The notes below the pieces were generated by a model. It made no database searches. It was not told the DNA's origin and saw only the letters and a program-made list of their open reading frames with translations. Below are positions 9,276 through 42,400 of a stretch of 64,000 nucleotides of DNA, one piece after another (positions within the stretch are counted from its first letter, which is position 1; each line of letters begins with the position of its first letter). The stretch covers positions 3,534,001-3,598,000 of the forward strand of contig NZ_LR884459.1 in the NCBI RefSeq assembly GCF_904848165.1, given 5' to 3'. A program made the translations under genes and the position numbers. Source of the DNA: Psychrobacter arenosus (GTDB taxonomy: Bacteria > Pseudomonadota > Gammaproteobacteria > Pseudomonadales > Moraxellaceae).

Positions 9276-9958
9276 TTGTCTTTGCTATCGAGTTTATTTA
9301 ATAGCTGTTTCGCGGTATCAGCTGAAGAGCCTGGGTTTTGCCCCGTGATTAACAGGCCATCTTCTACCACATACGACTCCCAATCCGCGGCTTTTTCATA
9401 CTGGCCGCCATTGTCTTTTAGAGCATCTTCCAATAAGAACGGCACCACGTCGGTCAGACCAACGCCTGCTTCTTCGCTATTGCTAAAGCCGGTGACTTTT
9501 TTGCCTTTCACTAAATACTCGCCATCTACTTTGACATTTTTTAGCGCGGCAGGTGAATGGCAGACGAAGGCCACAGGTTTATCTTGCTGCACAAAGTTTT
9601 CAATTAAGGCGATAGAGTTTTGATCGACGGCTAAATCCCATAAAGGACCATGGCCGCCAGGATAGAATACCGCATCAAAGTCTGCCGCATTGACTTCAGC
9701 CAAGACCGTAGTATGAGCTAAATCAGCTTGTGCAGCAGTATCTGCTTTAAAGCGTTTGGTAGCTTCGGTCTGTGCATCTTCAGCATCGCTTTTTGGGTCG
9801 AGGGGCGGTTGACCACCTGCAGGAGAAGCTAAAGTCACTTCAACACCAGCATCTTTAAAAGTGTAATACGGCGCGGCAAATTCTTCTAACCAAAAGCCAG
9901 TCTTCTCCCCCGTATCGCCAAGACGGTCATGCGAGGTTAATACCATTAAAATTTTCAT
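9269..9958 (-). CDS. DJ-1/PfpI-family protein (Hsp31/glyoxalase III-like)
   Basis: Class I glutamine-amidotransferase-like fold; relatives are glutathione-independent glyoxalases or chaperones acting on reactive carbonyl compounds. The 229 residues start MKILMVLTSHDRLGDTGEKTG and show the GFWLEEFAAPYYTFKDAG segment, the acidic/His region FYPGGHGPLWDL, the nucleophile elbow AFVCHSPAAL with the catalytic cysteine, and the C-terminal TGQNPGSS motif. It is the last gene of a probable three-gene operon (yqhD-like, curA-like, this gene), spacing 47 bp, which fits aldehyde detoxification. The exact activity is not proven by sequence. Confidence 0.87.
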   Translation of the reverse strand: MKILMVLTSHDRLGDTGEKTGFWLEEFAAPYYTFKDAGVEVTLASPAGGQPPLDPKSDAEDAQTEATKRFKADTAAQADLAHTTVLAEVNAADFDAVFYPGGHGPLWDLAVDQNSIALIENFVQQDKPVAFVCHSPAALKNVKVDGEYLVKGKKVTGFSNSEEAGVGLTDVVPFLLEDALKDNGGQYEKAADWESYVVEDGLLITGQNPGSSADTAKQLLNKLDSKDNQ

Positions 9959-10005
9959 TATCAGTCCTTTTTATCCATTATGGTTATACAGTATTAATAA
10001 TCAAT

Positions 10006-11067
10006 TTAAGCAGAATCTGCAATTTTAACCACAGTCTTACCAAAATTAATGCCATCTAACATGTCGATAAAGCCTTGTGGCGCTTGCTCTAAGCCGTCAA
10101 CCATATGCTCTTTGGTTTTAACTTTACCGGTAGCTACCCAGTCGCCCATAGTCTGTAAGAATTCTGGGAAATGATTGCCGTATTCTTCAAAGATAATAAA
10201 GCCTTTCACAGTGAGGCGCTGACGGAGAATCATGGACATGAGCAGGCCTAAACGGTCTTTGCCTTCGGGCGTTTCAGTAGCGTTGTACTGTGAGACCAGC
10301 CCACAAACAGGGATACGGGCATGGGCATTCAATAGCGGCAGCACGGCATCAAAGACTTTGCCACCCACGTTTTCGTAGTAGATGTCGATACCATTCGGGC
10401 AGGCAGCAGCCAATTGCTCAGCAAAGTCATCAGCATAATGGTCTAGGCATTTATCAAAGCCCAATTCATTGACAGCATATTCGCATTTTTCTTTACCACC
10501 AGCGATACCGATGACGTTAAGCTCTTTAATCTTACCGACTTGGCCAACGGTAGCGCCAACAGGACCAGTAGCGGCAGCCACCACTAGAGTTTCGCCGGCT
10601 TTTGGTTTACCGATATCGGTTAAGCCCATGTAGCCAGTAAAGCCGGGCATACCGAGTACGCCTAAACCATAAGAAGGGTTGGGCATGTTGTTATCGAGCT
10701 TGACCACGCCCTCGCCATTACTGACGCTATAATCCTGCCAACCTGAATTCGACACGACCAAATCACCTTCGGCAAAGCCATCGACGTTGGAGGCAACGAC
10801 TTGCGCTACAGTACCACCCGTCATCACATCACCGACCTGTAAAGGGTCCGCATAGCTTTTGGCATCGCTCATACGACCGCGCATATACGGGTCTAATGAT
10901 AAATAAAGCGTGCGTAGCAGCATTTGGCTGTCATTCGGGGTAGGGATGGCTGCTGTGGCAAATTCGAAGTTTGCTGCTGTAGGCTTGCCATGAGGACGGC
11001 TGGCGAGTTTAATCTGACGGTTTTGTTGGTCGTTTTGTTGGACGGCTTGTTGAGTAGAAAAGTTCAT
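10006..11067 (-). CDS. NADPH-dependent medium-chain reductase, CurA-like
   Basis: Zinc-free MDR-superfamily oxidoreductase related to leukotriene B4 dehydrogenase and E. coli CurA, which reduce alpha,beta-unsaturated carbonyl compounds with NADPH. The 353 residues show RTLYLSLDPYMRGRMSD near residue 60, the nucleotide-binding motif AATGPVGATVGQVGKI, DIYYENVGGKVFDAV and the C-terminal GKTVVKIAD. No structural zinc cysteines are visible. It lies 58 bp after the yqhD-like gene and 47 bp before the DJ-1-like gene on the same strand, so the three are probably one operon for reactive carbonyls. Confidence 0.88.
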   Translation of the reverse strand: MNFSTQQAVQQNDQQNRQIKLASRPHGKPTAANFEFATAAIPTPNDSQMLLRTLYLSLDPYMRGRMSDAKSYADPLQVGDVMTGGTVAQVVASNVDGFAEGDLVVSNSGWQDYSVSNGEGVVKLDNNMPNPSYGLGVLGMPGFTGYMGLTDIGKPKAGETLVVAAATGPVGATVGQVGKIKELNVIGIAGGKEKCEYAVNELGFDKCLDHYADDFAEQLAAACPNGIDIYYENVGGKVFDAVLPLLNAHARIPVCGLVSQYNATETPEGKDRLGLLMSMILRQRLTVKGFIIFEEYGNHFPEFLQTMGDWVATGKVKTKEHMVDGLEQAPQGFIDMLDGINFGKTVVKIADSA

Positions 11068-26549: not shown

Positions 26550-26688
26550 AACCTGGGCGGTGTGGAAGCTACGCAAACTGGGTATGAGCGAATGTCACAG
26601 TTTATAAATCACCTAGGCGGTGTGGAAGGATTCCATCCTACCGAGATCTCAAGTATTTCATTCCTAAACTATCTGGGCGGTGTGATTC
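26541..26688 (-). CRISPR. three decayed repeats beyond the distal end of the main array
   Basis: Degenerate repeats at 26541-26568, 26601-26628 and 26661-26688 keep the GGGCGGTGTG core and the 60-bp period (32-nt spacers). They are separated from the main array by 94 bp without a repeat. They are the oldest part of the array in the direction of transcription. Confidence 0.8.
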
Positions 26689-26741
26689 TATTGATATTTA
26701 CTAGGAAGTATAACTTCTGAAAATTCTATTTAAAGAATTTT

Positions 26742-26785
26742 CCTTGCGCTGCCTAAAATTGACATGCAATTTTTTAACGGCGCTC
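26742..26785 (-). terminator. structured CRISPR trailer, copy B
   Basis: Minus strand: GAGCGCCGTTAA, hairpin AAAATTG-CATGT-CAATTTT, AGGCAGCGCAAGG. It shares the flanks GAGC-CCGTTAA and GCAAGG with copy A, while both stems differ in sequence but stay paired. It begins at the last, partly decayed repeat of the main array (26783-26810). Confidence 0.55.
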
Positions 26786-29700
26786 ATAAGTCACCTGAGC
26801 GGTGTGGAAGTGCAATGGTGAGCAAGCCGAACAAGCCGATGATTTCTAAGTCACCTGAGCGGTGTGGAAGCTCATTTGAGCTTAAAAGGGCGCTCAGGCA
26901 TGTTTCTAAGTCACCTGAGCGGTGTGGAAGAAGACTTTGTCGATGAGCTGATAGCAATGATTTTTCTAAGTCACCTGAGCGGTGTGGAAGTGGGGCACAC
27001 TCACACAAGACGACATCGACGCTTTCTAAGTCACCTGAGCGGTGTGGAAGCCTCACGATAAAGGCGCAGTCATACCGATTAATTTCTAAGTCACCTATAC
27101 GGTGTGGAAGACAGCAATCAAAGCAGGTAAGGCATCTGCTGATTTCTAAGTCACCTATGCGGTGTGGAAGTTTGATGATTCAATTGCGCTTGTTTAAACT
27201 CATTTCTAAGTCACCTATGCGGTGTGGAAGCAGCGTATCTTAAACAAATCAAACAAGATGGGTTTCTAAGTCACCTGAGCGGTGTGGAAGGGCGACTATA
27301 GAGCCATCAGGTATACCTGTATTTTCTAAGTCACCTGAGCGGTGTGGAAGGCACAAGGCCGGCACCATCATACAACCGGTACTTTCTAAGTCACCTGAGC
27401 GGTGTGGAAGTTTGGTACCGGATTTAGCAACATTAAGCACAATTTCTAAGTCACCTGAGCGGTGTGGAAGGCAAGGATAGGGTCGATATGATAAGGGTTT
27501 GCTTTCTAAGTCACCTGAGCGGTGTGGAAGAAAAATATAGCTGAGTATTATTATTATGCTGTCTTTCTAAGTCACCTGAGCGGTGTGGAAGCATATCACT
27601 GTGCCTTGGGGTTGGGTTTCAAATTTCTAAGTCACCTGAGCGGTGTGGAAGCGACAAAAGAAATAGGAATAACAATATCAGCATTTCTAAGTCACCTGAG
27701 CGGTGTGGAAGCAAGACCCTAAGACACCTGCAAGCGGTCAATGTTTCTAAGTCACCTGAGCGGTGTGGAAGGCTACTGCAGGACAGCTAGGCGTAGCAGA
27801 GCATTTCTAAGTCACCTGAGCGGTGTGGAAGAAATATTTATGGCACGCCAATTCCGAATGAATTTTCTAAGTCACCTGAGCGGTGTGGAAGTAAACATAT
27901 AACGGGGGTCCTCAATGGCCTTATTTCTAAGTCACCTGAGCGGTGTGGAAGACTTGGTTCGGCAGATTGATGATACGGTCGTATTTCTAAGTCACCTGAG
28001 CGGTGTGGAAGAAATATTTATGGCACGCCAATTCCGAATGAATTTTCTAAGTCACCTGAGCGGTGTGGAAGTAAACATATAACGGGGGTCCTCAATGGCC
28101 TTATTTCTAAGTCACCTGAGCGGTGTGGAAGACTTGGTTCGGCAGATTGATGATACGGTCGTATTTCTAAGTCACCTGAGCGGTGTGGAAGAGGCTCGCA
28201 CGGATTTACAGCCATGGATAACATTTCTAAGTCACCTGAGCGGTGTGGAAGTTCATACTTTTTAGATTTGGTCGGCTTAGTCTTTTCTAAGTCACCTGAG
28301 CGGTGTGGAAGATAAACAACAAAGACCTAAAGCTAGTAAAAAAATTTCTAAGTCACCTGAGCGGTGTGGAAGCGTACATATCGTCCATATATCTCGTATA
28401 TATCTTTCTAAGTCACCTGAGCGGTGTGGAAGGTATTAAAATTCAGAAAAAAACTAGGATTATATTTCTAAGTCACCTGAGCGGTGTGGAAGATGAAACG
28501 TGTGGCGACCCCTCTACGTTATGTTTTCTAAGTCACCTGAGCGGTGTGGAAGTCTCTAGGTTCATTATTTAGCTTCTGTAGTTATTTCTAAGTCACCTGA
28601 GCGGTGTGGAAGAGGGCAATGCTATCCATATCATTTGCAATGGTTTTCTAAGTCACCTGAGCGGTGTGGAAGTATTAGAGTTTATCGAATAACTGAACTT
28701 ACGATTTCTAAGTCACCTGAGCGGTGTGGAAGTTGGATGTTTAAGCCTTCTAAGACGGGCAATATTTCTAAGTCACCTGAGCGGTGTGGAAGGATTATAC
28801 CCACGCTCGTAAAAGCTCGCTTTGTTTCTAAGTCACCTGAGCGGTGTGGAAGCTTACCCTAAGCATCTGCCTGACCTACAAGCTTTTCTAAGTCACCTGA
28901 GCGGTGTGGAAGTAAATCATATGGAAGATTTTAGCAAAATTATTTTTCTAAGTCACCTGAGCGGTGTGGAAGGGGAGGATGTGGCGTGAGTAGTTTACCG
29001 TTAATTTCTAAGTCACCTGAGCGGTGTGGAAGGATAACAACGGCACTAAGCAGTATAAGACTGATTTCTAAGTCACCTGAGCGGTGTGGAAGTTGCTACC
29101 AACCTCATAAGCGGCGCTGCTAGTTTTCTAAGTCACCTGAGCGGTGTGGAAGATGACTTTATCCCAATGGTGGTATTAATCACATTTCTAAGTCACCTGA
29201 GCGGTGTGGAAGAATGAAGTTGATTAAAAACTGGCGAGAAATGTTTTCTAAGTCACCTGAGCGGTGTGGAAGAGTGGACGGAAACTGTGCCTGAGTGGAC
29301 GAACTTTCTAAGTCACCTGAGCGGTGTGGAAGATCCTGGAATCCTTTGGATAATCTTACCCACTTTTCTAAGTCACCTGAGCGGTGTGGAAGCGTGGCTG
29401 CGACTGCTTATCTGCTTAACTGGTTTTCTAAGTCACCTGAGCGGTGTGGAAGTGCTTACACTGCTAGAGCTGCTATCACTTCGTTTTCTAAGTCACCTGA
29501 GCGGTGTGGAAGCGCAAAACTATATAGCAACTGTCGATGAAGCATTTCTAAGTCACCTGAGCGGTGTGGAAGATTTGATGCAAGAGTTTGCCGTCCAACT
29601 GTCATTTCTAAGTCACCTGAGCGGTGTGGAAGCATTATCCCAACTGCAATCAGTTGTACCGTATTTTCTAAGTCACCTGAGCGGTGTGGAAGTAAGCGCA

Positions 29701-32700
29701 CAATCAAAGCATCAAAGGACTTTATTTCTAAGTCACCTGAGCGGTGTGGAAGGTGCGGTAGCTGAGTACTTGACAACGTACCGATTTCTAAGTCACCTGA
29801 GCGGTGTGGAAGTCTATCGATTGCGCTGTTTTGCCAGTCTGTACTTTCTAAGTCACCTGAGCGGTGTGGAAGGACAATCCAAACACGCCTAGATTGCGTT
29901 ATGTTTTCTAAGTCACCTGAGCGGTGTGGAAGTGATAATCTAGTAAAAACGTCATTGCAAAGCATTTCTAAGTCACCTGAGCGGTGTGGAAGAGGTCAAC
30001 GATTACAGCGTCTTTATGGCAGCATTTCTAAGTCACCTGAGCGGTGTGGAAGACTTGAAGAAATTGACAATCACTTGACCAAAATTTTCTAAGTCACCTG
30101 AGCGGTGTGGAAGGTTAATGCAAATGCGGCATCATTGGTACATGATTTCTAAGTCACCTGAGCGGTGTGGAAGTGGTACAAAAAAACCACCGCTAGGGTG
30201 GTTGTTTTCTAAGTCACCTGAGCGGTGTGGAAGCATTCAACGCGCTATCAGCGGCAATGACTTGATTTCTAAGTCACCTGAGCGGTGTGGAAGTTACAAC
30301 AAAAAGACGGTCAAAAAAGAAGAGTTTTCTAAGTCACCTGAGCGGTGTGGAAGTCAGGCGTAGCGTTGCCTGCCGTACTTGCACTTTTCTAAGTCACCTG
30401 AGCGGTGTGGAAGTCTCCAAGAAAACCACAAGACCTTCCTTGCCATTTCTAAGTCACCTGAGCGGTGTGGAAGTTTTAATAAGCGTATAATAAGATACTT
30501 AGAAATTTCTAAGTCACCTGAGCGGTGTGGAAGGAAAGGTTGCGCGCAAAGGCTGGAATGGCACTTTTCTAAGTCACCTGAGCGGTGTGGAAGTGACCAG
30601 CACGCCAGCTAGGAAGAACCATAGCTTTCTAAGTCACCTGAGCGGTGTGGAAGCACCCATAGTTTCTAGGTTGTTGCGCTCAACCTTTCTAAGTCACCTG
30701 AGCGGTGTGGAAGCATGTGTTTTGGCTATCTGCTCGATGCAATCATTTCTAAGTCACCTGAGCGGTGTGGAAGGCACTGTTTTTAACGCCAGGTATTCAC
30801 GGTATTTTCTAAGTCACCTGAGCGGTGTGGAAGCATTACCACTTGCATAGGGGTTTTGGTTTACATTTCTAAGTCACCTGAGCGGTGTGGAAGACATAAA
30901 GCTAGTAAAAAAAGGCGAATGGTACTTTCTAAGTCACCTGAGCGGTGTGGAAGCATTACCACTTGCATAGGGGTTTTGGTTTACATTTCTAAGTCACCTG
31001 AGCGGTGTGGAAGACATAAAGCTAGTAAAAAAAGGCGAATGGTACTTTCTAAGTCACCTGAGCGGTGTGGAAGATATTCATTTCCTTAAAATCGACATTA
31101 ACTAATTTCTAAGTCACCTGAGCGGTGTGGAAGCGCGATGGCTATGCGACCAATGAGCGTATTACTTTCTAAGTCACCTGAGCGGTGTGGAAGAAATACT
31201 CTAATAGATTAACTGGTTTTTGTGTATTTCTAAGTCACCTGAGCGGTGTGGAAGGCATCAGCAGCAGCTCAATAAATTCTTATGGCTTTCTAAGTCACCT
31301 GAGCGGTGTGGAAGAGCTTTTATAGATACCTTTGTTTTGCGCTTTATTTCTAAGTCACCTGAGCGGTGTGGAAGCGTAGCTTTAATAGCAACTACCCTGA
31401 CAAACTTTTCTAAGTCACCTGAGCGGTGTGGAAGGTCTCAAAATAAAAGTAACCGTACTTGTGGTATTTCTAAGTCACCTGAGCGGTGTGGAAGCCTCGC
31501 TCTTTAGCACCAAGTCGTAAGACTCATTTCTAAGTCACCTGAGCGGTGTGGAAGGTTTGGTTAGATACTTTGGAACACAAGACAAGTTTCTAAGTCACCT
31601 GAGCGGTGTGGAAGTCGTCACGCTCGATTAGTGAGTTTTGCCAGTTTTTCTAAGTCACCTGAGCGGTGTGGAAGGTTGACGTAAACAGTCATATAAACTT
31701 TCTTCTTTTCTAAGTCACCTGAGCGGTGTGGAAGAACAGCGATTTTTTATACGGCTACTACGCTTATTTCTAAGTCACCTGAGCGGTGTGGAAGTTAGAG
31801 GTTGGCGAAGCGCTAGACGAGAATAATTTCTAAGTCACCTGAGCGGTGTGGAAGTTGCTAAATAAGAATTTAAATTGAATGGAGATTTTCTAAGTCACCT
31901 GAGCGGTGTGGAAGTCACTATCTTTTTGCACAATGTACCGAGCGCATTTCTAAGTCACCTGAGCGGTGTGGAAGTACGGATTTGAATGATGGCTTGCTGC
32001 TCGACTTTTCTAAGTCACCTGAGCGGTGTGGAAGGTTGACGTAAACAGTCATATAAACTTTCTTCTTTTCTAAGTCACCTGAGCGGTGTGGAAGATATTC
32101 AAACGATGTCTGACCATCCACATCGCTTTCTAAGTCACCTGAGCGGTGTGGAAGGTTGACGTAAACAGTCATATAAACTTTCTTCTTTTCTAAGTCACCT
32201 GAGCGGTGTGGAAGGGTTACTTTTATTTTGAGACAAAAGAGCTACTTTTCTAAGTCACCTGAGCGGTGTGGAAGGTAGCTAGCAATTATGACATTTATAA
32301 GAAATTTTTCTAAGTCACCTGAGCGGTGTGGAAGACCCGATGCTGTCTCGTCAGTTGACCACTGGATTTCTAAGTCACCTGAGCGGTGTGGAAGATCACG
32401 ATGCACACGCATAAGGAGAACAACATTTTCTAAGTCACCTGAGCGGTGTGGAAGTTTTATTCTCCTCTTTAATGGATGAGTTGGCTTTTCTAAGTCACCT
32501 GAGCGGTGTGGAAGTAACGTCCAGCCACGATAATCGTTGTACTCTTTTTCTAAGTCACCTGAGCGGTGTGGAAGGATTTATCCTTTACTGCGTGTGATTT
32601 AAGCGATTTCTAAGTCACCTGAGCGGTGTGGAAGTTCATCTTCGGTCAATTCGTGGTCGGGGTCTTTTTCTAAGTCACCTGAGCGGTGTGGAAGTAATGG

Positions 32701-32935
32701 AGCTTGGCGAGCGCGTGCAACGTGAATTTCTAAGTCACCTGAGCGGTGTGGAAGGAAATCAAAGGGGCTTTAACACAACAAACTAATTTCTAAGTCACCT
32801 GAGCGGTGTGGAAGAAAACTAAAGGCGCTGAGCTTGGCGAATTAGTTTTCTAAGTCACCTGAGCGGTGTGGAAGGGCGACAGGGCTTAACTTACAACGTA
32901 CTAAGGATTTCTAAGTCACCTGAGCGGTGTGGAAG
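26783..32935 (-). CRISPR. type I-F CRISPR array, 103 repeats and 102 spacers
   Basis: 28-nt repeat, in crRNA sense CTTCCACACCGCTCAGG continuing TGACTTAGAAA; CACC/GGTG form the Cas6f stem around a GCTCA loop and the 8-nt handle is CTTAGAAA. Spacing is 60 bp (32-nt spacers) with five 33-nt spacers. Nearly all repeats are identical. The distal one (26783) is decayed at one end, and three near the distal end (27083, 27143, 27203) have loop changes (GTATA, GCATA). The handle orientation and repeat decay show transcription on the minus strand, from the leader at the right, away from cas6f. Spacers 27832-28011, 30832-30951 and one triplicated spacer are duplicated (see findings). Confidence 0.98.
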
Positions 32936-33111: not shown

Positions 33112-33717
33112 TTACCAATGGGGCACGGTTACGCCAGTAGTCATAGTATTAAGACCATAGGTATTAAACGCTCCTTTAACTGGGCTATCTACCACTTCTT
33201 GAAGGATAGATAGTCTATAAATCACGTCATTAGTTTCACTCTTTAGATTAATAAACGGCACTTTCAACTCAGGTTTGCGTTTTTTGACAGTGACCATAGC
33301 GTCTTCATAGCTAACCCCTAGCTTTTCAGCGAGAGTGTGCGCCTGAATCTCCATTGGCTTAAAGCGATAACGTTTTACCACTGCATGGCCCGTTGCCTTA
33401 TTACCAACCTCACTGATGCTTTTTACATGCACATAGTCACTAAGGCGAGACAACCATTTGTGCAAATCAAGTGTTTCTAAATCTGCCTGACTTGGGGCGA
33501 AGACTCGTAGTTTATGTCCCAGCTTAGAGGATTGCTCCTTTTTATCATCGTAGTGGTAGTCAGGGAAGCTTACCCCGATACTGTCGATGCCGTGTTCATT
33601 CTTGACCTCAGCAAGTGCTATATGCAACTGTGTATAGAGCTTTTGCCATATAAAGTAGGGCGAGATATCGGGGTCGGGTATTAGGGTAATCTCTTGGTAG
33701 TGAGTAAGCTGACTCAT
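33112..33717 (-). CDS. cas6f: Cas6f (Csy4) crRNA endoribonuclease
   Basis: Cuts the pre-crRNA at the base of each repeat hairpin and stays bound to the 3' end of the crRNA in the Csy complex. 201 residues, near the 187 of Pseudomonas. The catalytic histidine is expected at H32 in YTQLHIALAEV. Conserved VKRYRFKPMEIQAH follows; the C-terminal part contains VPFINLKSETN. Last of the minus-strand csy1-4 genes and next to the leader, 4 bp after csy3. Confidence 0.95.
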   Translation of the reverse strand: MSQLTHYQEITLIPDPDISPYFIWQKLYTQLHIALAEVKNEHGIDSIGVSFPDYHYDDKKEQSSKLGHKLRVFAPSQADLETLDLHKWLSRLSDYVHVKSISEVGNKATGHAVVKRYRFKPMEIQAHTLAEKLGVSYEDAMVTVKKRKPELKVPFINLKSETNDVIYRLSILQEVVDSPVKGAFNTYGLNTMTTGVTVPHW

Positions 33718-33720
33718 AGA

Positions 33721-34725
33721 TTACTCCTTACCACTGGCACCAAATACGCCACCACGAATGAGTACCGCCATCACATAGTGCTGCTGCTCGACGTCGGGTG
33801 TTTCTCCTTTCAATATCCAATTATCGAATAGGCTATAAAAGTCCATTTTCGCTTTAGGCTGACGGAAAGCTGTGCCTAAGGTAGTCACTGCGCCGTAAGG
33901 TTCGATAGCAATAGGGAACTCGGCGTCGGGATACCAAGTATCGATAGTGCGGATAGCATTACCAATCTTTTGGGAGTGCATGCCTGCTTTACCATTGATT
34001 TGGTAAAGTTCTTTACTCTTAGTCTTGCCAGTATCTAAAACCAGCTCTTGAGAAGGATAAACCTCCTGACCATATCCCATCTTCGCTGCGCCTTTTACGT
34101 AAAGAATAACAAAGGCTTCTCCTGTTAGACCTTTCTCAATTAGATTGGCTAACTCAGTGAGCTGTTCGTTAGAGTCGTCAAAGTCACGTAAAGATAAGGA
34201 CTTACCGGCGAAATTTAGCTCGTGCTTATTGCCCGCTACTTCACAAGTGACTTCAACGTCGATGCTCTCTGCTCCTACGCGATTGCGCCATAACCAACGA
34301 GCGTTAGCGATATTGGTCGCGTAACGACGAGCAAGCTCACTGACTCCTTGAGTATTTAAATAGTCTTGTACAGTAGCCTCCAACGCTTGCTGATACTCGC
34401 TGTCATTGCATACATTAGGTTTACCTGTGAATGGCAGGACTTTGCAACTCCAAGTCACTACTAAGGTATCGTTTGCTTCATCAAGAGCAGCAGAATCAAC
34501 ACGCTGTAAATTGGCTTTTTCAATCTCAGCGTCTAGTTTTGCAGGGTCAATTTTATTAGCGTTCTTAAGACGATTACTGATGGTGCCGCGTACGGACTTT
34601 TCTTTAATAGTCACTGGAGTCGATTTTGCTTGCAAGTTCTGGCTGTCACGCTGCGCGAAAAAAGCGTCAGAGATATCTAGGTTGCGCTCAAAAGCCAATA
34701 CAGATGCGGTTTTTAAATTGCTCAT
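33721..34725 (-). CDS. cas7f: Cas7f (Csy3) backbone subunit
   Basis: Forms the six-copy helical backbone of the type I-F Cascade around the crRNA spacer. 334 residues; typical stretches are SVLAFERNLDISDAFF, ARYATNIANARWLWRNRVGAE, YPSQELVLDTGKTKSKELY and the C-terminal HYVMAVLIRGGVFGASG. Family length is about 330-340. Located between csy2 and csy4. Confidence 0.96.
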   Translation of the reverse strand: MSNLKTASVLAFERNLDISDAFFAQRDSQNLQAKSTPVTIKEKSVRGTISNRLKNANKIDPAKLDAEIEKANLQRVDSAALDEANDTLVVTWSCKVLPFTGKPNVCNDSEYQQALEATVQDYLNTQGVSELARRYATNIANARWLWRNRVGAESIDVEVTCEVAGNKHELNFAGKSLSLRDFDDSNEQLTELANLIEKGLTGEAFVILYVKGAAKMGYGQEVYPSQELVLDTGKTKSKELYQINGKAGMHSQKIGNAIRTIDTWYPDAEFPIAIEPYGAVTTLGTAFRQPKAKMDFYSLFDNWILKGETPDVEQQHYVMAVLIRGGVFGASGKE

Positions 34726-34782: not shown

Positions 34783-35760
34783 TTAATGATCGTACTCTTG
34801 GGTGACTAGATAGAGCGACTGCTCAGCGTCATAGTCATAACGCCAAAAGGCGTTGGCTATGTCATGCGCGCTGTCGATACCCCCTAAACGCTGTGGATAT
34901 ACCCATTTTCCTAAGCTATAAATAGACTCAACATATTGACTGGTATATTCCGGATTGCGTACATTTTGCATCTCACCTGCCTCATATAACTCAGAGATAC
35001 CTTGATAGCCTATTGGCATAGGTACTAGCCAACCGTGACCTGACTTGCGAGAAGTGGTCAGCCATTTGGTATCACCATTTTTTTGTGTTTCTGGAATATG
35101 ATGCAGGGCACATACTTCAATTAAAGCATCTAAAGGGGTAGCTTCAGGTTTTTCTTGTTGGATTTCCTGGATAATCTCTGCAAAGTCATCTTGTGCGTCT
35201 ATCAATACAAAGGCGGGCAGTAACTGGGGAACAATGGTATCTAAATCATCGTCATCGAAGAATTGCACCGGTTGAAATCGATCGATACCTTGGACACTAC
35301 CGCCTGCCATACGCTGTTGCCAAACCCATTGATGGCTCCGTTTAATCAGGCTTTGTTGCTCTTCATCGCTTAAGCGGTTTTCAGCTAAAACTTCCACAGC
35401 TAAAGTAACCACCAGACGACATTTACCTTCTTCTATAATAGAGGCGGTCTTACCGTCTTTTTTGATCGGATTACGACTCTGGTTAAAGGTGTAATTGTTA
35501 TAATTTTTATCGCGATACATTTGCGGTTGGCAGTCATGACAGGCAATTAGAACGCCGCCCAGTGATAAGTCAGCTAAGTCGTCTGTAGTCGCTAGTTTGC
35601 GCGACATAGCATGAAAACTACCCAAAAACCCAGTAATAGCAGGAAAGCCGTAAGTTAGTGGACTAGAGATGGTGTTCGCTCCCTCAACCACCAACTTTTT
35701 AAATAATAAGTAGCCGACAATGTCTTTTGTCTGCTCATGATTGTTATCTAGGCGACTCAT
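34783..35760 (-). CDS. cas5f: Cas5f (Csy2) subunit
   Basis: Binds the 5' handle of the crRNA with Cas8f at the foot of Cascade. 325 residues; the conserved SPLTYGFPAITGFLGSFHAM and the C-terminal PQRLGGIDSAHDIANAFWRYDYD are visible. It overlaps the csy1 stop by four bases (coupled translation) and is 57 bp before csy3. Confidence 0.95.
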   Translation of the reverse strand: MSRLDNNHEQTKDIVGYLLFKKLVVEGANTISSPLTYGFPAITGFLGSFHAMSRKLATTDDLADLSLGGVLIACHDCQPQMYRDKNYNNYTFNQSRNPIKKDGKTASIIEEGKCRLVVTLAVEVLAENRLSDEEQQSLIKRSHQWVWQQRMAGGSVQGIDRFQPVQFFDDDDLDTIVPQLLPAFVLIDAQDDFAEIIQEIQQEKPEATPLDALIEVCALHHIPETQKNGDTKWLTTSRKSGHGWLVPMPIGYQGISELYEAGEMQNVRNPEYTSQYVESIYSLGKWVYPQRLGGIDSAHDIANAFWRYDYDAEQSLYLVTQEYDH

Positions 35761-37142
35761 AGAAATACTCCTCTGCCAGCTCGCTCATATAGTTTAGTCA
35801 TAGCTTCTATCTCGCGCTCCCATTCGAGGTGCTCAGCATCGGCAAACTCTCTCTTAATCTCTTTAAACTCGTCTTGTAGTAGTGAATTAAGCCAACGTGC
35901 GAAGTTATGAATAATCTGTTGATGCCAAGCAGCGCTACTGTCTTCACGTTTGGCTTTAAAGTCTGCTTGTCCGTCTAATTCTGCGCGTAATGGGTCTAGC
36001 CAGTACTTCTCGCAATCATCTAGCTCGTAATCTTTAGACCATCCTACAGGCATAGTGCTGCGTAGATGCTCTGCTGATTCAAAGATATAATTTAATATTT
36101 CATCAATAGCCTGTTTGCGAGCATCACGAATGTCTACGATATTGCGCTGGTCTTTGACGGCTTTAAATACTTTGGAGAGAGCAGGTTTGGCCTTATGCGC
36201 CAAAGCGCTACCAAAGATAGAGTTGGCAAATTTTGAAGGTTTAAAAGTATCGGTACGAGTTAGCATGGGCGGTGGCATAGAAGGTAATAAGTAATTTCGT
36301 CCCCCTTGTTTGCTCATCAGTAAGCTAACGTTTTGTGGTTTAGTACCGCCCAACTGTAAAGTAGCCAAATTATTTAGACTGACATAAGGCTGTTGCTCCG
36401 CAGTTTTTTTAAATCGATTGTCGCGAGCGCTTTTATTCTCTTCCGAAAACTTAACGTGATTGATGCGCTGATAAACTTCATGAGTCAATACAGAAGGGTA
36501 GAGTGGTACGGTAGTGATGTAATCTAGATGCGCTAAAGCTACACTGCTATAAGCATTGGTCGGCCATAAAGTTTGTTTGTTGCGTTCGTGAGTGATTGGC
36601 TGGGTAATCAGGTTTTGTAAGGCTGTTTTAAAGACTTGGTGATACTCTTTTGCCGTCTGTTGCTCTTTTGCTAGCGAGTTAGTAAAGTCAGCATTATCTG
36701 ACAGAATAAGATCACGAATTTTAGTCTTCTCATTCACGGCAAAGTCAAAAAAAGCAGCAAGGGGCAGGGCAGCAGCATTACCATTGGCATCAATATAATG
36801 ACTTTGAATAGAGTGGGTGCCGACTAAGGTCTCAGAGATATCATTAGTTTCAGTAAAGCTGATGTTGTCACCTTTCGCATCCGGATGTACCCCCTTAGAG
36901 ATATGGGTGCCGAAATTCAACTGTTTCGCCATTCGGTTGGCCGCATCAGCCACCCAATTGCCTACACTATATTTTTCTTTAGCTTCAGCCAAAGTAGTTG
37001 TAAGCACCGAAGCGCCGTCACTATCACCGTCCTCAATGGCCTTAGCGAGCTGTTTTTGCTCTTTGTCAGTTTTCTTATCATAAAGGCTGCTCAAAAAGGC
37101 ATGAACAGCCACCTTGGCAGAAATGTGATTTTGATTTTCCAT
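35757..37142 (-). CDS. cas8f: Cas8f (Csy1) large subunit
   Basis: Large subunit of type I-F Cascade, which recognises the CC/GG PAM and the 5' handle. 461 residues from the ATG at 37142 (the longer frame starts at a GTG that would overlap the AGGAG ribosome site). Features: QKLQ-rich N-terminus, WPTNAYSSVALAHLDYITTVPL, LGGTKPQNVSLLMSKQGGR (typical of Csy1), LNYIFESAEHLRSTMPVGWS and the C-terminal MTKLYERAG. First gene of csy1-4, with its own promoter at 37198-37226. Confidence 0.93.
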   Translation of the reverse strand: MENQNHISAKVAVHAFLSSLYDKKTDKEQKQLAKAIEDGDSDGASVLTTTLAEAKEKYSVGNWVADAANRMAKQLNFGTHISKGVHPDAKGDNISFTETNDISETLVGTHSIQSHYIDANGNAAALPLAAFFDFAVNEKTKIRDLILSDNADFTNSLAKEQQTAKEYHQVFKTALQNLITQPITHERNKQTLWPTNAYSSVALAHLDYITTVPLYPSVLTHEVYQRINHVKFSEENKSARDNRFKKTAEQQPYVSLNNLATLQLGGTKPQNVSLLMSKQGGRNYLLPSMPPPMLTRTDTFKPSKFANSIFGSALAHKAKPALSKVFKAVKDQRNIVDIRDARKQAIDEILNYIFESAEHLRSTMPVGWSKDYELDDCEKYWLDPLRAELDGQADFKAKREDSSAAWHQQIIHNFARWLNSLLQDEFKEIKREFADAEHLEWEREIEAMTKLYERAGRGVFL

Positions 37143-37173
37143 AAACACTCCTATATTTTTTAGTTGTATATTT

Positions 37174-37227
37174 ATAGATTAAAGTTGACTCCTGTTAAAT
37201 CTAATCTATTCACCTGAGTTAGTCAAC
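37174..37227 (-). promoter_or_regulatory. csy1 promoter with two interleaved inverted repeats
   Basis: On the minus strand TTGACT (37226-37221) and TAGATT (37203-37198) have 17-bp spacing. Two perfect inverted repeats interleave here: ATAGATTA (37174-37181) with TAATCTAT (37202-37209), and GTTGACT (37184-37190) with AGTCAAC (37221-37227). They cover the -10 and -35 boxes, so a repressor could control cas expression here. Confidence 0.6.
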
Positions 37228-37341
37228 ACCTATTTAATACCATTTATAAATAACAGCCACACCTCTTCGAAATTATTAAAATTGTCCTGTATACTTTGAA
37301 TAACCCCGTCAATTAAACTTTAGCCGTAATGGGATGAAATC

Positions 37342-37635
37342 ATGATCTTTGAGTGGGACGACCATAAAAACCGTTCAAACATTCAAAAGCATCATTTGTC
37401 CTTTGACGATGTAATTGGGGTTTTCTTTGATCCTTTTTGTCTTAGAAAGCTAGATTACAGGTTTGATGAAGAAGAGCGCTGGCAAGCCCTAGGTGCCAGC
37501 AATGGTATAACTATAGTGCTAGTAGCGTATTCTCATCGCGATAACGAAGATAATGAAATTATTCGTATAATCAGTGCACGTAAAGCCGATAGCCAAGAGA
37601 GGCGGACTTATGAATATGGTAAGAAAGGTTATTAA
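37342..37635 (+). CDS. brnT: BrnT-family toxin embedded in the cas locus
   Basis: 97-residue RelE-fold RNase toxin of the BrnT (DUF497) family. The signature FEWDDHKNRSNIQKHHLSFDDV, the RWQALGASNG block and IRIISARKADSQERRTYE are intact. It runs opposite to the cas genes and its start is about 200 bp from csy1, so the two share a divergent promoter region. It overlaps brnA by 26 bases. Family members inhibit translation by RNA cleavage. Confidence 0.9.
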   Translation: MIFEWDDHKNRSNIQKHHLSFDDVIGVFFDPFCLRKLDYRFDEEERWQALGASNGITIVLVAYSHRDNEDNEIIRIISARKADSQERRTYEYGKKGY

Positions 37636-37894
37636 TCACCCACCACAGCTTTCCTCAGAGCAGCTAGATAGACTTGCCAAACTCGAGGAGATGCCCGATA
37701 GTCATATTGATTATTCAGACATTCCGTTAACCTCTGATTGGCAAGATGCTATTCAAGGGTCTATAGGGGCTCCTGCCCATTTACTGGATAGTGACGTACT
37801 AGCTTGGTTAGCTACTCAGGATGATGCAACCAAGCGCCATGTTAGTGAAGTCATTCGTCATATCATGTTGTTACAGCAAGACAATTTCTCTTAA
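37610..37894 (+). CDS. brnA: BrnA-family antitoxin
   Basis: Antitoxin partner of BrnT. I take the ATG at 37610 (94 residues, MNMVRKVINHPPQL), with GAGAGGCGG ahead of it, rather than the upstream ATG at 37574 that lies inside the toxin frame. It has the usual BrnA N-terminal linker and the C-terminal ribbon-helix-helix (LLDSDVLAWLATQDDATKRHVSEVIRH in part: DSDVLAWLATQDD). It neutralises the toxin and normally represses the brnTA promoter. Confidence 0.85.
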   Translation: MNMVRKVINHPPQLSSEQLDRLAKLEEMPDSHIDYSDIPLTSDWQDAIQGSIGAPAHLLDSDVLAWLATQDDATKRHVSEVIRHIMLLQQDNFS

Positions 37895-37946: not shown

Positions 37947-37961
37947 TATAATCTTTATAAT
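37947..37961 (+). promoter_or_regulatory. tandem TATAAT boxes before the mini-array
   Basis: TATAAT at 37947-37952 and 37956-37961 lie 9-23 bp before the first degenerate repeat on the plus strand. No good -35 at the correct distance is visible. Confidence 0.45.
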
Positions 37962-37969
37962 GCAAGCTT

Positions 37970-38105
37970 CTTTAACACCATTTAGGTGACTTAGAAAACC
38001 CAATAGGGCGGCTTTGTTTAAAAATACGGCTTTACCACCATTTAGGTGACTTAGAAATATTTCATACCGTCTATATTATTTATCACCGCATAGGTGGCTT
38101 AAAAC
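37970..38105 (+). CRISPR. degenerate three-repeat mini-array opposite to the main array
   Basis: Repeat 1 (37970-37997) and repeat 2 (38030-38057) keep the CTT start, CACC/GGTG stem and exact CTTAGAAA handle but have an ATTTA loop; repeat 3 (38078-38105) keeps CACC-GCATA-GGTG and has a decayed end (GCTTAAAAC). Spacer 1 (37998-38029) is exactly 32 nt and starts ACCCAATAGGGCGG; spacer 2 (38058-38077) is only 20 nt, TATTTCATACCGTCTATATT. The orientation is plus, opposite to the main array. It looks like a small crRNA-like unit between brnA and cas2-3. Confidence 0.85.
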
Positions 38106-38111
38106 TTTCTT

Positions 38112-38141
38112 AAAAGGCATGGGTAACCCTATGCCTTTTTT
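38112..38141. terminator. bidirectional terminator between mini-array and cas2-3
   Basis: AAAGGCATGGG pairs with CCCTATGCCTTT; runs of A before and T after allow it to end both the mini-array and the cas2-3 transcript. Confidence 0.8.
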
Positions 38142-38152
38142 GTTTCTAAAAG

Positions 38153-41100
38153 CTAATCACGTATAAACCCAAAGTACTCATGAAAGTGCCAGCCTCGGTT
38201 GTTACTCGGCGTCATACGATCCAGTGAAGCAGACGCATAGCTAATAGCTAAGGAGCGCAAGCTTTTTTCGGGTTGTTTGGCCTGTAGTTCTAGCAAAGCT
38301 TCTTTTAACGAAGTGGCTAACCAAGGGTAAATACTCGGATGATTGAACTCAAAATCTAGAGGCTGAACGACTTTATTTTGCGAATTGGCTCTATTTAATC
38401 CTTTATCAAACACCTCTTCAGCAGGGTAAGCGTCAAAGCCCTCAGAGGGAATATCCGTATCTTCATCATCGTGTACCAAGCGTGGGATGAGCAACCAATC
38501 TTCCTGCGGGCTGCCCGCTCGAAAAGGACTAATTTGCTGTAAATGGGTATGAGTGCGATTGGCAGTAGCCCCAGATTCCCAATAAGCATTCACATAATTT
38601 AACTTGGTATTATTCAGCAAGTCTTTCATAACCTGATGCTCGAGGTCGCTTAGCGTCTCAACCGTTTTATTGTCACTAGTGAGTATGCGTGGCCTAGCAT
38701 CGATGTGCTCGAGCTGTGCTGGGCTAATCAGTTTATTTAAGTCATAACTTTTAGGCTGGATACTGACGGTCTCAAATCCAGGACGGGTAAAGACAGGCTG
38801 CTTAGCCCCTTTTTGTTTGAAGTAACCAAGGTTATATTGCAGCAAGAAGATATTAGGGGTGGTGGCGACTTTATCGGGGCGATGCCGCCATACTCGGCCC
38901 GCCAATTGAATAATTGAGCGCATGGAAGAGGGCTCGACGATAGCCCAATCATAATCGTGATCGCGTCCTACTTCTGCTACCGGCGTTGCGAGCACCATAA
39001 AAATATGTTTTTGCGCAGGGTGGCTAGCGAGCGCCTGCTGTATTTCTGGATGCTCAAAGAGTGCTATCTCACTATCGCCGCGAGCTAGAATACGGTCGAG
39101 TTTATTCTCTAAACTGTTGCGTAGTACTAAAAGCTGCTTGGCATGATAGCTCACCACATGCAGTACCGTATCGTCAGGTAAGTGAATAGTCTCTGGTCGA
39201 AATAATTGCTTGGCAATGGCATTAATATTGTTGACGTTGGCAATACGCACCAGCCCGATGCTTACCTGTTGCGAAGTTTTGGAGGAAGTTACGTGGTGGT
39301 CATTGTGCAAGGTAATAGCGCCATCGACGATTACTTGCGCCAGTTGACTATAGAATTGCGTTTGTGATTCTTTACTGTAGGACAATTCAAGAGGCAATAT
39401 CTCAGCCTTACGGCGGATAGGCTGCTTGGCAAGATAACTGGCTCGCCGGGTGCTAAAGTTATTGTGCGCCTCATAAAAGTTACTGCTGGCATTGCACTGC
39501 TGCGAGGTTACAGATTTTTCTTGCTCATCAAACCAAGCACAGACGACATTAGGTGAGGGTTTATTTTGGCTTTGATTGAAGAGTTTTCGCCCTTCCAGAT
39601 AGGCCTCAAAAAGCCCTGTTACTAAGTCTGGCGTCAGCGTAGCAGAAGACAGTAATACCCGTGTCCCCATAAGTCCAGCTAGATGAACAAGGCGAGATAA
39701 GGCAGGTAAGTCAGCCTGATCAAAGTCGTCCGGCTCATCGAGAATAAGGTCGCTGCTAAGTAGGCGCAGCATAGGGGCGATATACTTGCCGCCGCGCTTG
39801 CACTCGCTAGCTTGGATAATATGATCAACAGTACAGGTCACAATAGGAGCAAAGATTAGGTCACGCGCTTTAGGGCTAGCTATGACAGTACCAAAATTAA
39901 GCTCATCATAATCTTGGTAATCAATATCGCTGTCTATAATCTCGTCTATCAAATCTTCGCTAGACTCACTGCCAAAAGTTTCAGAGTCATGGTCCGGGTT
40001 AGAGTCTTTATTGTATTCCGCTAAGATATGGCTAAACTCGCCTGCTTTATTGTCATAAGCCAACTCAAATAATTTCTTATGCGCAGTACCACCGACCAAT
40101 ATAGCTAGCTGATTGCCCTGCAATTTTAGGTTGTTACGAAAGCTCAATCCCGTTTGTAAAGTCAGGACGCGCAGTCCCAAAGCTATGGTAAAGCGAGCGC
40201 CTTTTTTAGGGTCAGCAAGAGCATACATAATGCGAGCGTTACCAATAGTTTTACCAGCACCTGTAGAGGCCATATTTATGCCAAAAAAGCCATGCTCGCA
40301 GGTGGTCTCTTGCAAGCCCAAAGCAGCCTTAAAAGCAGCGTTTTGCCATTTAAAGCGAGCAACTCCCGTAGGTTTCGCTAGAGGATCGTGATTCTTAAGG
40401 CGAGGCATTTCGCCAGCAATAATGGGCAAGGCACGGGCAAATTGCGCTGTAAAAGACCCCACACCCAATAAGTGTTCTTCTAACGATTGCTTCACCGTAG
40501 GCTTATCTTTGGTTCGGTCGGTATTGGCTGCAAGCTTTGCAAAGGTGCTGTTTACTTTTAGGCAGCGGCTATCGTCTTCTTTCAAGCTAGAATAATTATG
40601 GTCGCCAACCATCAGGGATAGTCGCGATAAATGCAGCAGTAAAGGGTCACTAATGGCTTGCTGAGTATCCATAGCTTGTTGGCTTAGTTGGATAAGGGTG
40701 TGGTCATTTAAAGCTTTTTTTGACCAACGCTTTATATCCTTTTGCCACAGTGGGCTATGAATGACTGAGTGCTCAAATTGCCAAAAGTTTTTGAGTTGTG
40801 TAGGAGACATTTCTTCAAGCGATTTTGGGTTTTTTACCCAGTAATCTACCGGCTTAAGATAGGTATAAAATTTGTTTAATGCCCATTTAATCTCTAAAGA
40901 TTTGCTACGCTGTCTTTGTATCGCTTTTGGAGAGTAGAATACGTCTTTAGCAGGTGGCAGACGATGGTGGGTCACGATAAGCCAGGCCACCCATTGAGCT
41001 AGAGGAGGTAACTTACTGATTTCAGTTTTATCGGGATTGGCAGCGATTAATAACTTTTCGATAGCTTGGTTATCCAACCAATCACTGAGGTTTTGAAAAC

Positions 41101-41614
41101 GATTTAGCCAGTCTGCATCCGTGTTGCAATCTTGCGTTAGTATTTCGAATAATTTTAACGAGATCCATTCATGGCGATAGGGGTCACCTAAACGACTGCC
41201 TTCAATGAGTTTCTTTTGAAAACCCACAGTTGATTTGCCAATGTCATGGAGTAAAGCGGCAAGCGTAGCGATAATTTGAATACTGCTAGCATATGTCCAA
41301 TCATTCTCCCATTCCGCGTGCAATAAGTTCCGCCGCGTAGAATTCACAGGCACAATCCCAATCTCATTAAACTTACGCTTATTACCCACGATCCAAACCA
41401 ATTCAGACTGCTTACGAGTCTTGATGCGATGACAACTTACCGCCGTAGACTTAGTTGCCGACTTACGCAGCAACTGTTTGATAGTAGCCAGACCATCTTC
41501 TGTAATAGCCGTTTGCCAAACATTGCTACCGATACGATTAGCAAAAGCATCTAATATTCGCCGAGTACGTTTAAGCGAGTTCTTTTCGCATTGCGAGACA
41601 AAGGTGACAATCAT
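38153..41614 (-). CDS. cas2-3: Cas2-Cas3 fusion, nuclease-helicase of type I-F
   Basis: 1153 residues. The N-terminal Cas2 domain (about 1-95, MIVTFVSQCEKNSLKRTRR) works in spacer integration with Cas1; an HD nuclease follows with LLHDIGK (H123, D124); then an SF2 helicase with Walker A STGAGKT at about 450-456 and DEPDDFD at about 625, and motif RVWRHRPDK near 900. This fusion is diagnostic of type I-F. In most I-F loci it directly follows cas1; here the Phd/VapC pair separates them, and BrnTA plus the mini-array separates it from csy1. Its own promoter would be near 41646 (TTGACA on the minus strand). Confidence 0.96.
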   Translation of the reverse strand: MIVTFVSQCEKNSLKRTRRILDAFANRIGSNVWQTAITEDGLATIKQLLRKSATKSTAVSCHRIKTRKQSELVWIVGNKRKFNEIGIVPVNSTRRNLLHAEWENDWTYASSIQIIATLAALLHDIGKSTVGFQKKLIEGSRLGDPYRHEWISLKLFEILTQDCNTDADWLNRFQNLSDWLDNQAIEKLLIAANPDKTEISKLPPLAQWVAWLIVTHHRLPPAKDVFYSPKAIQRQRSKSLEIKWALNKFYTYLKPVDYWVKNPKSLEEMSPTQLKNFWQFEHSVIHSPLWQKDIKRWSKKALNDHTLIQLSQQAMDTQQAISDPLLLHLSRLSLMVGDHNYSSLKEDDSRCLKVNSTFAKLAANTDRTKDKPTVKQSLEEHLLGVGSFTAQFARALPIIAGEMPRLKNHDPLAKPTGVARFKWQNAAFKAALGLQETTCEHGFFGINMASTGAGKTIGNARIMYALADPKKGARFTIALGLRVLTLQTGLSFRNNLKLQGNQLAILVGGTAHKKLFELAYDNKAGEFSHILAEYNKDSNPDHDSETFGSESSEDLIDEIIDSDIDYQDYDELNFGTVIASPKARDLIFAPIVTCTVDHIIQASECKRGGKYIAPMLRLLSSDLILDEPDDFDQADLPALSRLVHLAGLMGTRVLLSSATLTPDLVTGLFEAYLEGRKLFNQSQNKPSPNVVCAWFDEQEKSVTSQQCNASSNFYEAHNNFSTRRASYLAKQPIRRKAEILPLELSYSKESQTQFYSQLAQVIVDGAITLHNDHHVTSSKTSQQVSIGLVRIANVNNINAIAKQLFRPETIHLPDDTVLHVVSYHAKQLLVLRNSLENKLDRILARGDSEIALFEHPEIQQALASHPAQKHIFMVLATPVAEVGRDHDYDWAIVEPSSMRSIIQLAGRVWRHRPDKVATTPNIFLLQYNLGYFKQKGAKQPVFTRPGFETVSIQPKSYDLNKLISPAQLEHIDARPRILTSDNKTVETLSDLEHQVMKDLLNNTKLNYVNAYWESGATANRTHTHLQQISPFRAGSPQEDWLLIPRLVHDDEDTDIPSEGFDAYPAEEVFDKGLNRANSQNKVVQPLDFEFNHPSIYPWLATSLKEALLELQAKQPEKSLRSLAISYASASLDRMTPSNNRGWHFHEYFGFIRD

Positions 41615-41715: not shown

Positions 41716-41982
41716 ATGCAGCAAGTTACCAGTCAAGAGTTTAGACAGAGTCCTGATAAAATATTACAGCAGGCAGACAATGAGCCTGTTCTAATTACCC
41801 AACATGGTATACCTGAACGAGTAATAATGAGCTTTGAGCAATATCAAGCTATTAATGCGGTCAAAAAAGATACTAAACCATTTGTTAGTGCAGCAGATGC
41901 CCTCAGTGGCTCACCTGAAGTTGCGGATATTGATTTTGATCCGCCACGCGTTGAAATAGGCTTTCGATCTGTCGAGTTTTAA
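41716..41982 (+). CDS. Phd/YefM-family antitoxin
   Basis: 88 residues; starts MQQVTSQEFRQSPDKILQQADN, then EPVLITQHGIPERVIMSFEQY, the typical Phd/YefM DNA-binding fold; the C-terminal part (SGSPEVADIDFDPPRVEI) is the toxin-binding tail. It ends one base before the toxin start. It would repress its own promoter together with the toxin. Confidence 0.9.
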   Translation: MQQVTSQEFRQSPDKILQQADNEPVLITQHGIPERVIMSFEQYQAINAVKKDTKPFVSAADALSGSPEVADIDFDPPRVEIGFRSVEF

Positions 41983-41983
41983 T

Positions 41984-42400
41984 ATGTATTTACTTGACAC
42001 TAATGTGATTTCCGAAATTCGTAAGGTAAATTTAGGCAAAGCAAATGCCGGTGTCGCTGAATGGACGAGGCAAGCCTCTCAGTCCTTGATGTATGTTAGT
42101 GTTATCTCTTTAATGGAAATAGAGCAGGGTATTTTAAGACTGGAGCGTAGAGATACGGTTCAGGCTTCCCTGTTAAAAAACTGGTTCCATAATACGGTTC
42201 TGCCTTCCTTTGATGATAACGTGGTTAACATTGATCAAAGAGTAGCGTTAGCTTGCGCTGCCTTGCATGTCCCTGACAAACAGCCGGCTAACGATTCCCT
42301 TATTGCGGCGACCGCCCTAATTCATGACTTAACCTTAGTGACTCGTAATACCAAAGACTTTGAACACATTGGGGTCAGGTTATTTAATCCTTTCACCTAA
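41984..42400 (+). CDS. vapC: VapC-type PIN-domain toxin
   Basis: 138-residue PIN ribonuclease. Acidic active-site residues are in MYLLDTNVISEIRK (D5), EIEQGILRLERRD and ANDSLIAATALIH; VTRNTKDFEHIGV is the conserved C-terminal end. The module lies opposite to cas1 and cas2-3 and separates them. Toxins of this family usually cut tRNA or rRNA. Confidence 0.92.
   Translation: MYLLDTNVISEIRKVNLGKANAGVAEWTRQASQSLMYVSVISLMEIEQGILRLERRDTVQASLLKNWFHNTVLPSFDDNVVNIDQRVALACAALHVPDKQPANDSLIAATALIHDLTLVTRNTKDFEHIGVRLFNPFT

Follow-up and report, generated by a model that had tools for sequence, protein, structure and literature searches.

A mini-array in the type I-F CRISPR-Cas locus of Psychrobacter arenosus that probably guides repression of csy1-4

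The type I-F locus and its mini-array

We analysed a window of 64,000 nucleotides from the genome of Psychrobacter arenosus (3.70 Mb, one contig), which holds a type I-F CRISPR-Cas system consisting of cas1, cas2-3 and csy1-4, as recognised by Pfam/NCBIfam profile matches. The genes and the main array are arranged as follows:

26601-32930, minus strand: main CRISPR array, 103 repeats with at most two mismatches from the core motif
33112-33717, minus strand: csy4 (cas6f), the processing nuclease (PF09618, TIGR02563)
33721-34725, minus strand: csy3 (csy2 and csy3 supported by PF09615 and PF09614)
34783-35760, minus strand: csy2 (same support)
35757-37148, minus strand: csy1 (cas8f), first gene of the csy1-4 operon (PF09611, TIGR02564)
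37342-37635, plus strand: brnT (PF04365)
37610-37894, plus strand: ORF in brnA position
38153-41614, minus strand: cas2-3 (PF21384, PF22590)

The plus strand of the interval between cas2-3 and csy1 carries brnT, the ORF in brnA position and a mini-array. The ORF is called brnA by position only and gave zero Pfam or NCBIfam matches above cut-off. Elsewhere in the locus, the main array contains a 180-base tandem duplicate (27803-27982 and 27983-28162, 100% identical), and a pair encoding a Phd-type antitoxin and a PIN-domain protein lies on the opposite strand between cas1 and cas2-3 (41716-42400).

The mini-array is a real feature, comprised of three repeats (R1 to R3) and two spacers:

37947-37952 and 37956-37961, plus strand: two TATAAT hexamers upstream of R1, putative -10 of a mini-array promoter
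37970-37997, plus strand: R1, CTTTAACACCATTTAGGTGACTTAGAAA, I-F-like, with CACC/GGTG stem and CTTAGAAA handle
37998-38029, plus strand: spacer 1, 32 nt
38030-38057, plus strand: R2, 96% identity to R1, CTTAGAAA handle
38058-38077, plus strand: spacer 2, 20 nt, TATTTCATACCGTCTATATT, the guide matching the csy1 promoter region
38078-38105, plus strand: R3, terminal and degenerate, 71% identity to R1, stem kept, handle CTTAAAAC
38112-38139, plus strand: terminator-like hairpin with T-rich tail, 3' of R3

An earlier, sequence-only reading had described three degenerate repeats that all keep the CACC/GGTG stem, with the CTTAGAAA handle intact in R1 and R2 only, and the sequence bears this out. The lengths that it gave for the spacers (32 and 20 nt) are correct, as is the framing of the unit by TATAAT boxes (37947-37961) and a terminator, seen here as a terminator-like hairpin (38112-38139). 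We also confirmed that the two arrays differ in orientation, the mini-array lying on the plus and the main array on the minus strand: the repeat core has 102 reverse-strand matches in the genome with up to three mismatches, and those listed all lie within the main array, while the zero-mismatch matches listed for the 22-nt core are R1 and R2 only. A TATAAT-like box directly 5' of the first repeat was seen by eye in several relatives. The predicted fold of the whole unit draws the R1 stem only, with R2 and R3 folded otherwise, which speaks weakly against a CreR-type unit. An Rfam search of the window returned zero families at the gathering threshold.

Guide and target upstream of csy1

Spacer 2 matches 15 of the 20 positions of a site in the divergent promoter region of csy1 and brnT, with mismatches at positions 6, 12, 14, 19 and 20. 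The site directly follows CC, the type I-F PAM, and is located about 80 bp from csy1. Looking for CC-flanked seed matches at the promoters of csy1, cas2-3, cas1, brnT and vapC had been proposed in the sequence-only reading, and the match found goes beyond what that reading reported. The elements of this region are:

37198-37226, minus strand: predicted csy1 promoter, TTGACT-17-TAGATT, by consensus match; -35 two bases from the PAM
37229-37230 and 37231-37250, plus strand: CC PAM and spacer 2 target
37267-37295, plus strand: predicted brnT promoter, TCGAAA-17-TATACT, by consensus match; -35 16 bases from the target

Among the 6,319 CC sites of the window, this site ranks first in effective identity as well as in seed run; every sixth base is left out of both measures. 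A genome search with CC plus the first 18 guide bases, leaving positions 6, 12 and 14 open (the last opened after the match had been seen), gave one exact match, which is the 37231-37250 site; the other matches carry at least two mismatches, and their number within three mismatches equals that of the reversed control (26 vs 26). Within the 193-bp csy1-brnT gap, 15/20 at CC was reached by none of 874 main-array spacers from the window and its relatives (best 13), and by 11 of 20,000 shuffles of spacer 2 itself. A local scan for consensus promoters returned 5 matches vs 4.0 expected; since such matches are common in such DNA, the comparative promoter test given below weighs more.

For the comparison we searched the genus and found Csy1 in 20 of 105 genomes, the window's genome counted. 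Long loci were taken from 15 strong Csy1 relatives, giving 16 Psychrobacter loci together with the window; weak csy1 matches (G079, G031, G043, G026 and a second one in G039) were left out of this set. A divergent mini-unit is present in ten of the 16 csy1 loci, and its last guide matches a site next to CC upstream of csy1; the unit search detected no such unit in the remaining six. The sequence-only reading had advised looking for the unit in relatives, and this recurrence of a similar layout means that the arrangement in the window is not due to chance. The unit of L035 was missed by the first pattern and recovered in the plain-identity search described below. In L030 and L031 the guide target lies upstream of a gene inserted before csy1 (L031 by eye). 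In L030 this is a DUF2188 gene (9938-10171) between the target and csy1, with the target at its predicted promoter; L031 looks alike by eye. Additionally, L041 carries a HigB-like toxin and an HTH protein directly 3' of the mini-array (10218-10863), and L043 and L044 are alike by eye.

Guides mostly differ among loci, and the targets change along with them. Across 14 loci, namely ten from Psychrobacter including the window, L111 from Acinetobacter and three of Moraxella type, the identity of a guide to its own target is 15.1 of 18, vs 8.1 when guides and targets are paired crosswise. A few relatives share guides, which also match crosswise (L030/L031, L035/L036 and L115-L117).

The search was then widened to 76 regions upstream of csy1 (16 Psychrobacter, 40 family and 20 named others), in which each guide was compared with its own region by plain identity, without PAM and without skipped positions. 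The family sample rests on Csy1 matches in 72 genomes, including 20 of the genus; 40 from outside the genus and four further regions were sampled, and a second region of G191 (L187), which lay on the wrong side, was left out; of 32 named loci, 20 entered the 76-region statistics and 12, from Psychrobacter, Moraxella or Acinetobacter, were scanned apart. A best match of at least 16/20 was found for 24 of 59 solitary or mini-unit guides (22 at CC), and main-array spacers reached it in 11 of 995 cases, one of them at CC. With the threshold set to the level of the window itself (15/20 with CC), the counts are 25/59 vs 3/995.

The mismatches in these pairs are not evenly spread. In 27 CC-flanked pairs, positions 6, 12 and 18 are mismatched in 46 of 81 cases, vs 26 of 405 at the other positions of 1-18; Fisher's test gives p 4e-24, a value that is too small because the loci share ancestry. 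With one pair per guide cluster the contrast persists (35/63 vs 19/315). None of the 27 pairs is mismatched at positions 1-5, and similarity fades past about position 20. In type I complexes, every sixth base of the crRNA is flipped out. The set consists of 26 automatically chosen pairs (at least 14/20), in which the choice of site did not favour the 6/12/18 phase, plus L036, whose best plain-identity site (17/20) is TC-flanked and whose CC site (16/20) was entered by hand; six CreTA-type loci are among the 27. At 15/20, the pair from the window is one of the weakest in the set, and the guide of L039 is likewise mismatched at position 14.

In 9 of the 14 loci, a promoter-like pair scoring at least 8 of 12 with 17-base spacing lies 0-2 nt from the PAM toward csy1, against a background of 164 of 3,427 positions for a pair of that score. 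L111 scores 7 at this place, while L039, L041, L043 and L044 score 5 or 6. These 14 loci are free of the 33-bp mini-ORF discussed below, and a promoter-like pair adjoining the PAM is the layout expected of CreR, that is, of repression of the cas operon.

Guides of this kind extend beyond the family. In a class-level sample, Csy1 occurs in 32 of 369 genomes, and 33 further regions (29 from this sample and 4 of the family, G567 and G676 being left out) gave 8 of 21 guides with a CC-flanked best match of at least 15/20, seven of these eight from outside the family. Some of the class-sample guides are probably CreTA, for example that of L160, which has a similar mini-ORF. Four family loci (L138, L144, L145 and L188) combine a unit with a target next to CC that lies 339-487 nt ahead of a gene resembling cas2-3, as judged by its N-terminus; a 33-bp ORF between target and gene is absent in three of the four.

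Spacer 1 behaves differently from spacer 2. It has zero strong local matches in the window, and with up to three mismatches it gave 10 matches in the genome vs 6 for the reversed control, none below two mismatches and one of the two-mismatch matches being the mini-array itself. Neither search offers a convincing target for a second regulatory guide. As a phage spacer it also lacks a source in the collections searched: its exact 22-mer is absent from viral contigs, and phage and plasmid collections gave matches at E of 3 or worse only. The earlier proposal of a regulator resembling CreR or CreA is thus supported for spacer 2 only, by its promoter match and, strongly, by the comparison with relatives. 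In L036 (P. urativorans, 10249-10380, with csy1 set on the minus strand) an extra 32-nt spacer lies on the promoter side of the regulatory spacer, flanked by near-identical repeats, and its exact 21-mer is absent from viral contigs. It is a fair guess that spacer 1 was acquired, with duplication of the first repeat.

Comparison with known systems and alternative readings

CreR RNAs are crRNA-like RNAs that regulate cas genes (Liu et al. 2023 Cell Host Microbe, as cited in passages of PMC13131331 and PMC12737573). Two of their features are present here: a crRNA-like unit with repeat hairpins beside a cas operon, and a guide partly complementary to a PAM-flanked site at the predicted promoter of the cognate cas genes, so that autorepression of the effector operon is predicted. 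On the basis of these likenesses and of the comparative data, the mini-array is probably a type I-F CreR-type unit that makes the Csy complex repress csy1-4; most likely, its guide turns down the production of the CRISPR complex itself. The window unit differs from the described CreR in several respects: it belongs to type I-F, its target is at csy1, its guide is 20 nt long, it contains an additional spacer of 32 nt, and BrnTA separates the guide gene from the target. A passage of one review names types I-B, I-E and V-A for CreR (PMC13131331), and another review passage names type I and V-A. Neither a type I-F CreR nor a Psychrobacter mini-array is named in titles or abstracts among the matches listed, and the primary CreR paper may list I-F.

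The closest relative by position is the I-F CreTA of Acinetobacter sp. WCHA45, shown by experiment according to passages of PMC10097628. There the guide gene occupies the cas3-csy1 gap, and a 20-nt guide at a CC PAM pairs except at positions 6, 11 and 18; creT, divergent from creA, is a toxin RNA with a 33-bp mini-ORF and a Shine-Dalgarno sequence. The same passages report that changing any of positions 2-5, 7-9 or 13-17 abolished CreA function, that 10, 12, 19 and 20 could be changed, and that position 1 mattered in part. For type I-B CreA, a passage of PMC8501985 describes changes at base 6 or 12 as harmless and bases 1-5 and 7-11 as needed. The window unit shares with WCHA45 the cas3-csy1 gap, divergence from csy1, the 20-nt guide, the CC PAM and the mismatch at 6, which could suggest that its guide represses a small RNA toxin near the target. 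The WCHA45 target, however, is downstream of the promoter of the mini-ORF toxin RNA, whereas that of the window lies at the promoter predicted for csy1. In six of seven other family loci, the stretch between target and csy1 holds a mini-ORF of 33 bp with a Shine-Dalgarno sequence (e.g. MFSTHLIRRV); among them is L121, whose mismatches fall exactly at 6, 11 and 18 as reported for WCHA45. Such a mini-ORF is absent in the roughly 80 bp between target and csy1 of the window, as well as in nine other Psychrobacter loci, L111, the three Moraxella-type loci and L126. We therefore give very little probability to a CreTA in the window, although a toxin RNA lacking such an ORF may be present. Conversely, we do not take all I-F units for CreR, because the CreTA mini-ORF is found in six loci of the Acinetobacter type.

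Near the window's target no creT-like mini-ORF was found, but brnT faces it too. This raises a CrePA-like reading, in which the guide mainly regulates brnT, and BrnT is set free once the Csy complex is lost or inhibited. The likeness lies in a protein toxin gene beside the target of a crRNA-like guide; the target has the predicted csy1 promoter on one side and that of brnT, whose -35 is 16 bp away, on the other, and brnT itself lies between target and mini-array with the same orientation as the latter. CreP, however, typically has a KilA-N domain and is repressed by CreA (in a passage of PMC12737573), whereas here an ORF in brnA position accompanies BrnT, and the place of the target suits csy1. 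Moreover, relatives without BrnTA have similar target positions upstream of csy1, and in the five BrnT genomes that also have a sampled relative's csy1 locus (G016, G051, G063, G066 and G078) BrnT and csy1 are on separate contigs. Homologues of BrnT were found in 35 of the 105 genomes of the genus, and reading of the 15 relatives revealed no BrnTA in their csy1 gaps. In our view BrnTA was inserted later, separating the target from the guide gene, and brnT is very improbable as the main target. As to whether the brnT promoter arrived with the BrnTA module, blastn of the csy1-brnT gap against 29 BrnT loci returned one 17-base match only. A combined arrangement, speculative and on balance unlikely, would have one guide set the supply of csy1-4 and hold down brnT, so that inhibition of the complex by an anti-CRISPR would raise Cas and free a type II toxin. 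On this view the mini-array between cas3 and csy1 would serve as an evolutionary socket whose role alternates among control of cas genes (in Psychrobacter and Moraxella), an RNA toxin (in Acinetobacter CreTA) and a protein toxin (in the window). A remnant or second defence array with phage-derived spacers, whose promoter match is coincidental, would accord with the 32-nt spacer 1 that found no regulatory target and with nearly identical R1 and R2, as after spacer acquisition; yet the recurrent position, the short last spacer, the co-variation of guide and target, the period-6 mismatches and the failure of spacer 1 to match the phage, plasmid and viral collections searched make it highly improbable. 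Degenerate I-F repeats outside the main array could also be a Racr-like RNA anti-CRISPR, a solitary repeat acting as decoy, which is exceedingly unlikely for a mini-array inside a cas locus whose guide recurs with a self target in relatives.

Proposed mechanism and its meaning

As a type I-F CreR, the mini-array would be transcribed from its own promoter and cut by Csy4 at the repeat hairpins, releasing a crRNA-like RNA with a CUUAGAAA handle, a 20-nt guide starting UAUUUCAUACC... and a terminal hairpin. This short RNA would load a shortened Csy complex, which may occupy the site that follows CC next to the -35 of csy1 and obstruct RNA polymerase, making the csy1-4 operon self-repressing. As the match is short and imperfect, with identity ending at about nucleotide 18, it would allow binding without a full R-loop or cleavage by Cas2-3. 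Competition from crRNAs or anti-CRISPRs for the Csy complex would relieve the repression, and such release of CreR repression is described in passages of two reviews (PMC12737573, PMC12948488). The window guide is mismatched at position 14, which WCHA45 CreA needs; binding here could therefore be weak, and weaker than that of the tested WCHA45 guide.

These findings suggest that RNA-guided self-repression also occurs in type I-F systems of several genera, encoded at the genomic place that the known toxin-guarding I-F guide occupies. The mismatches at every sixth base form a signature by which natural regulatory guides of type I systems may be found from sequence only, and the pairs predict that positions 6 and 12 matter little, while most of 1-5 and 7-11 matter. 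The mismatch at position 14 in the window further raises the question of how much pairing such repression needs.
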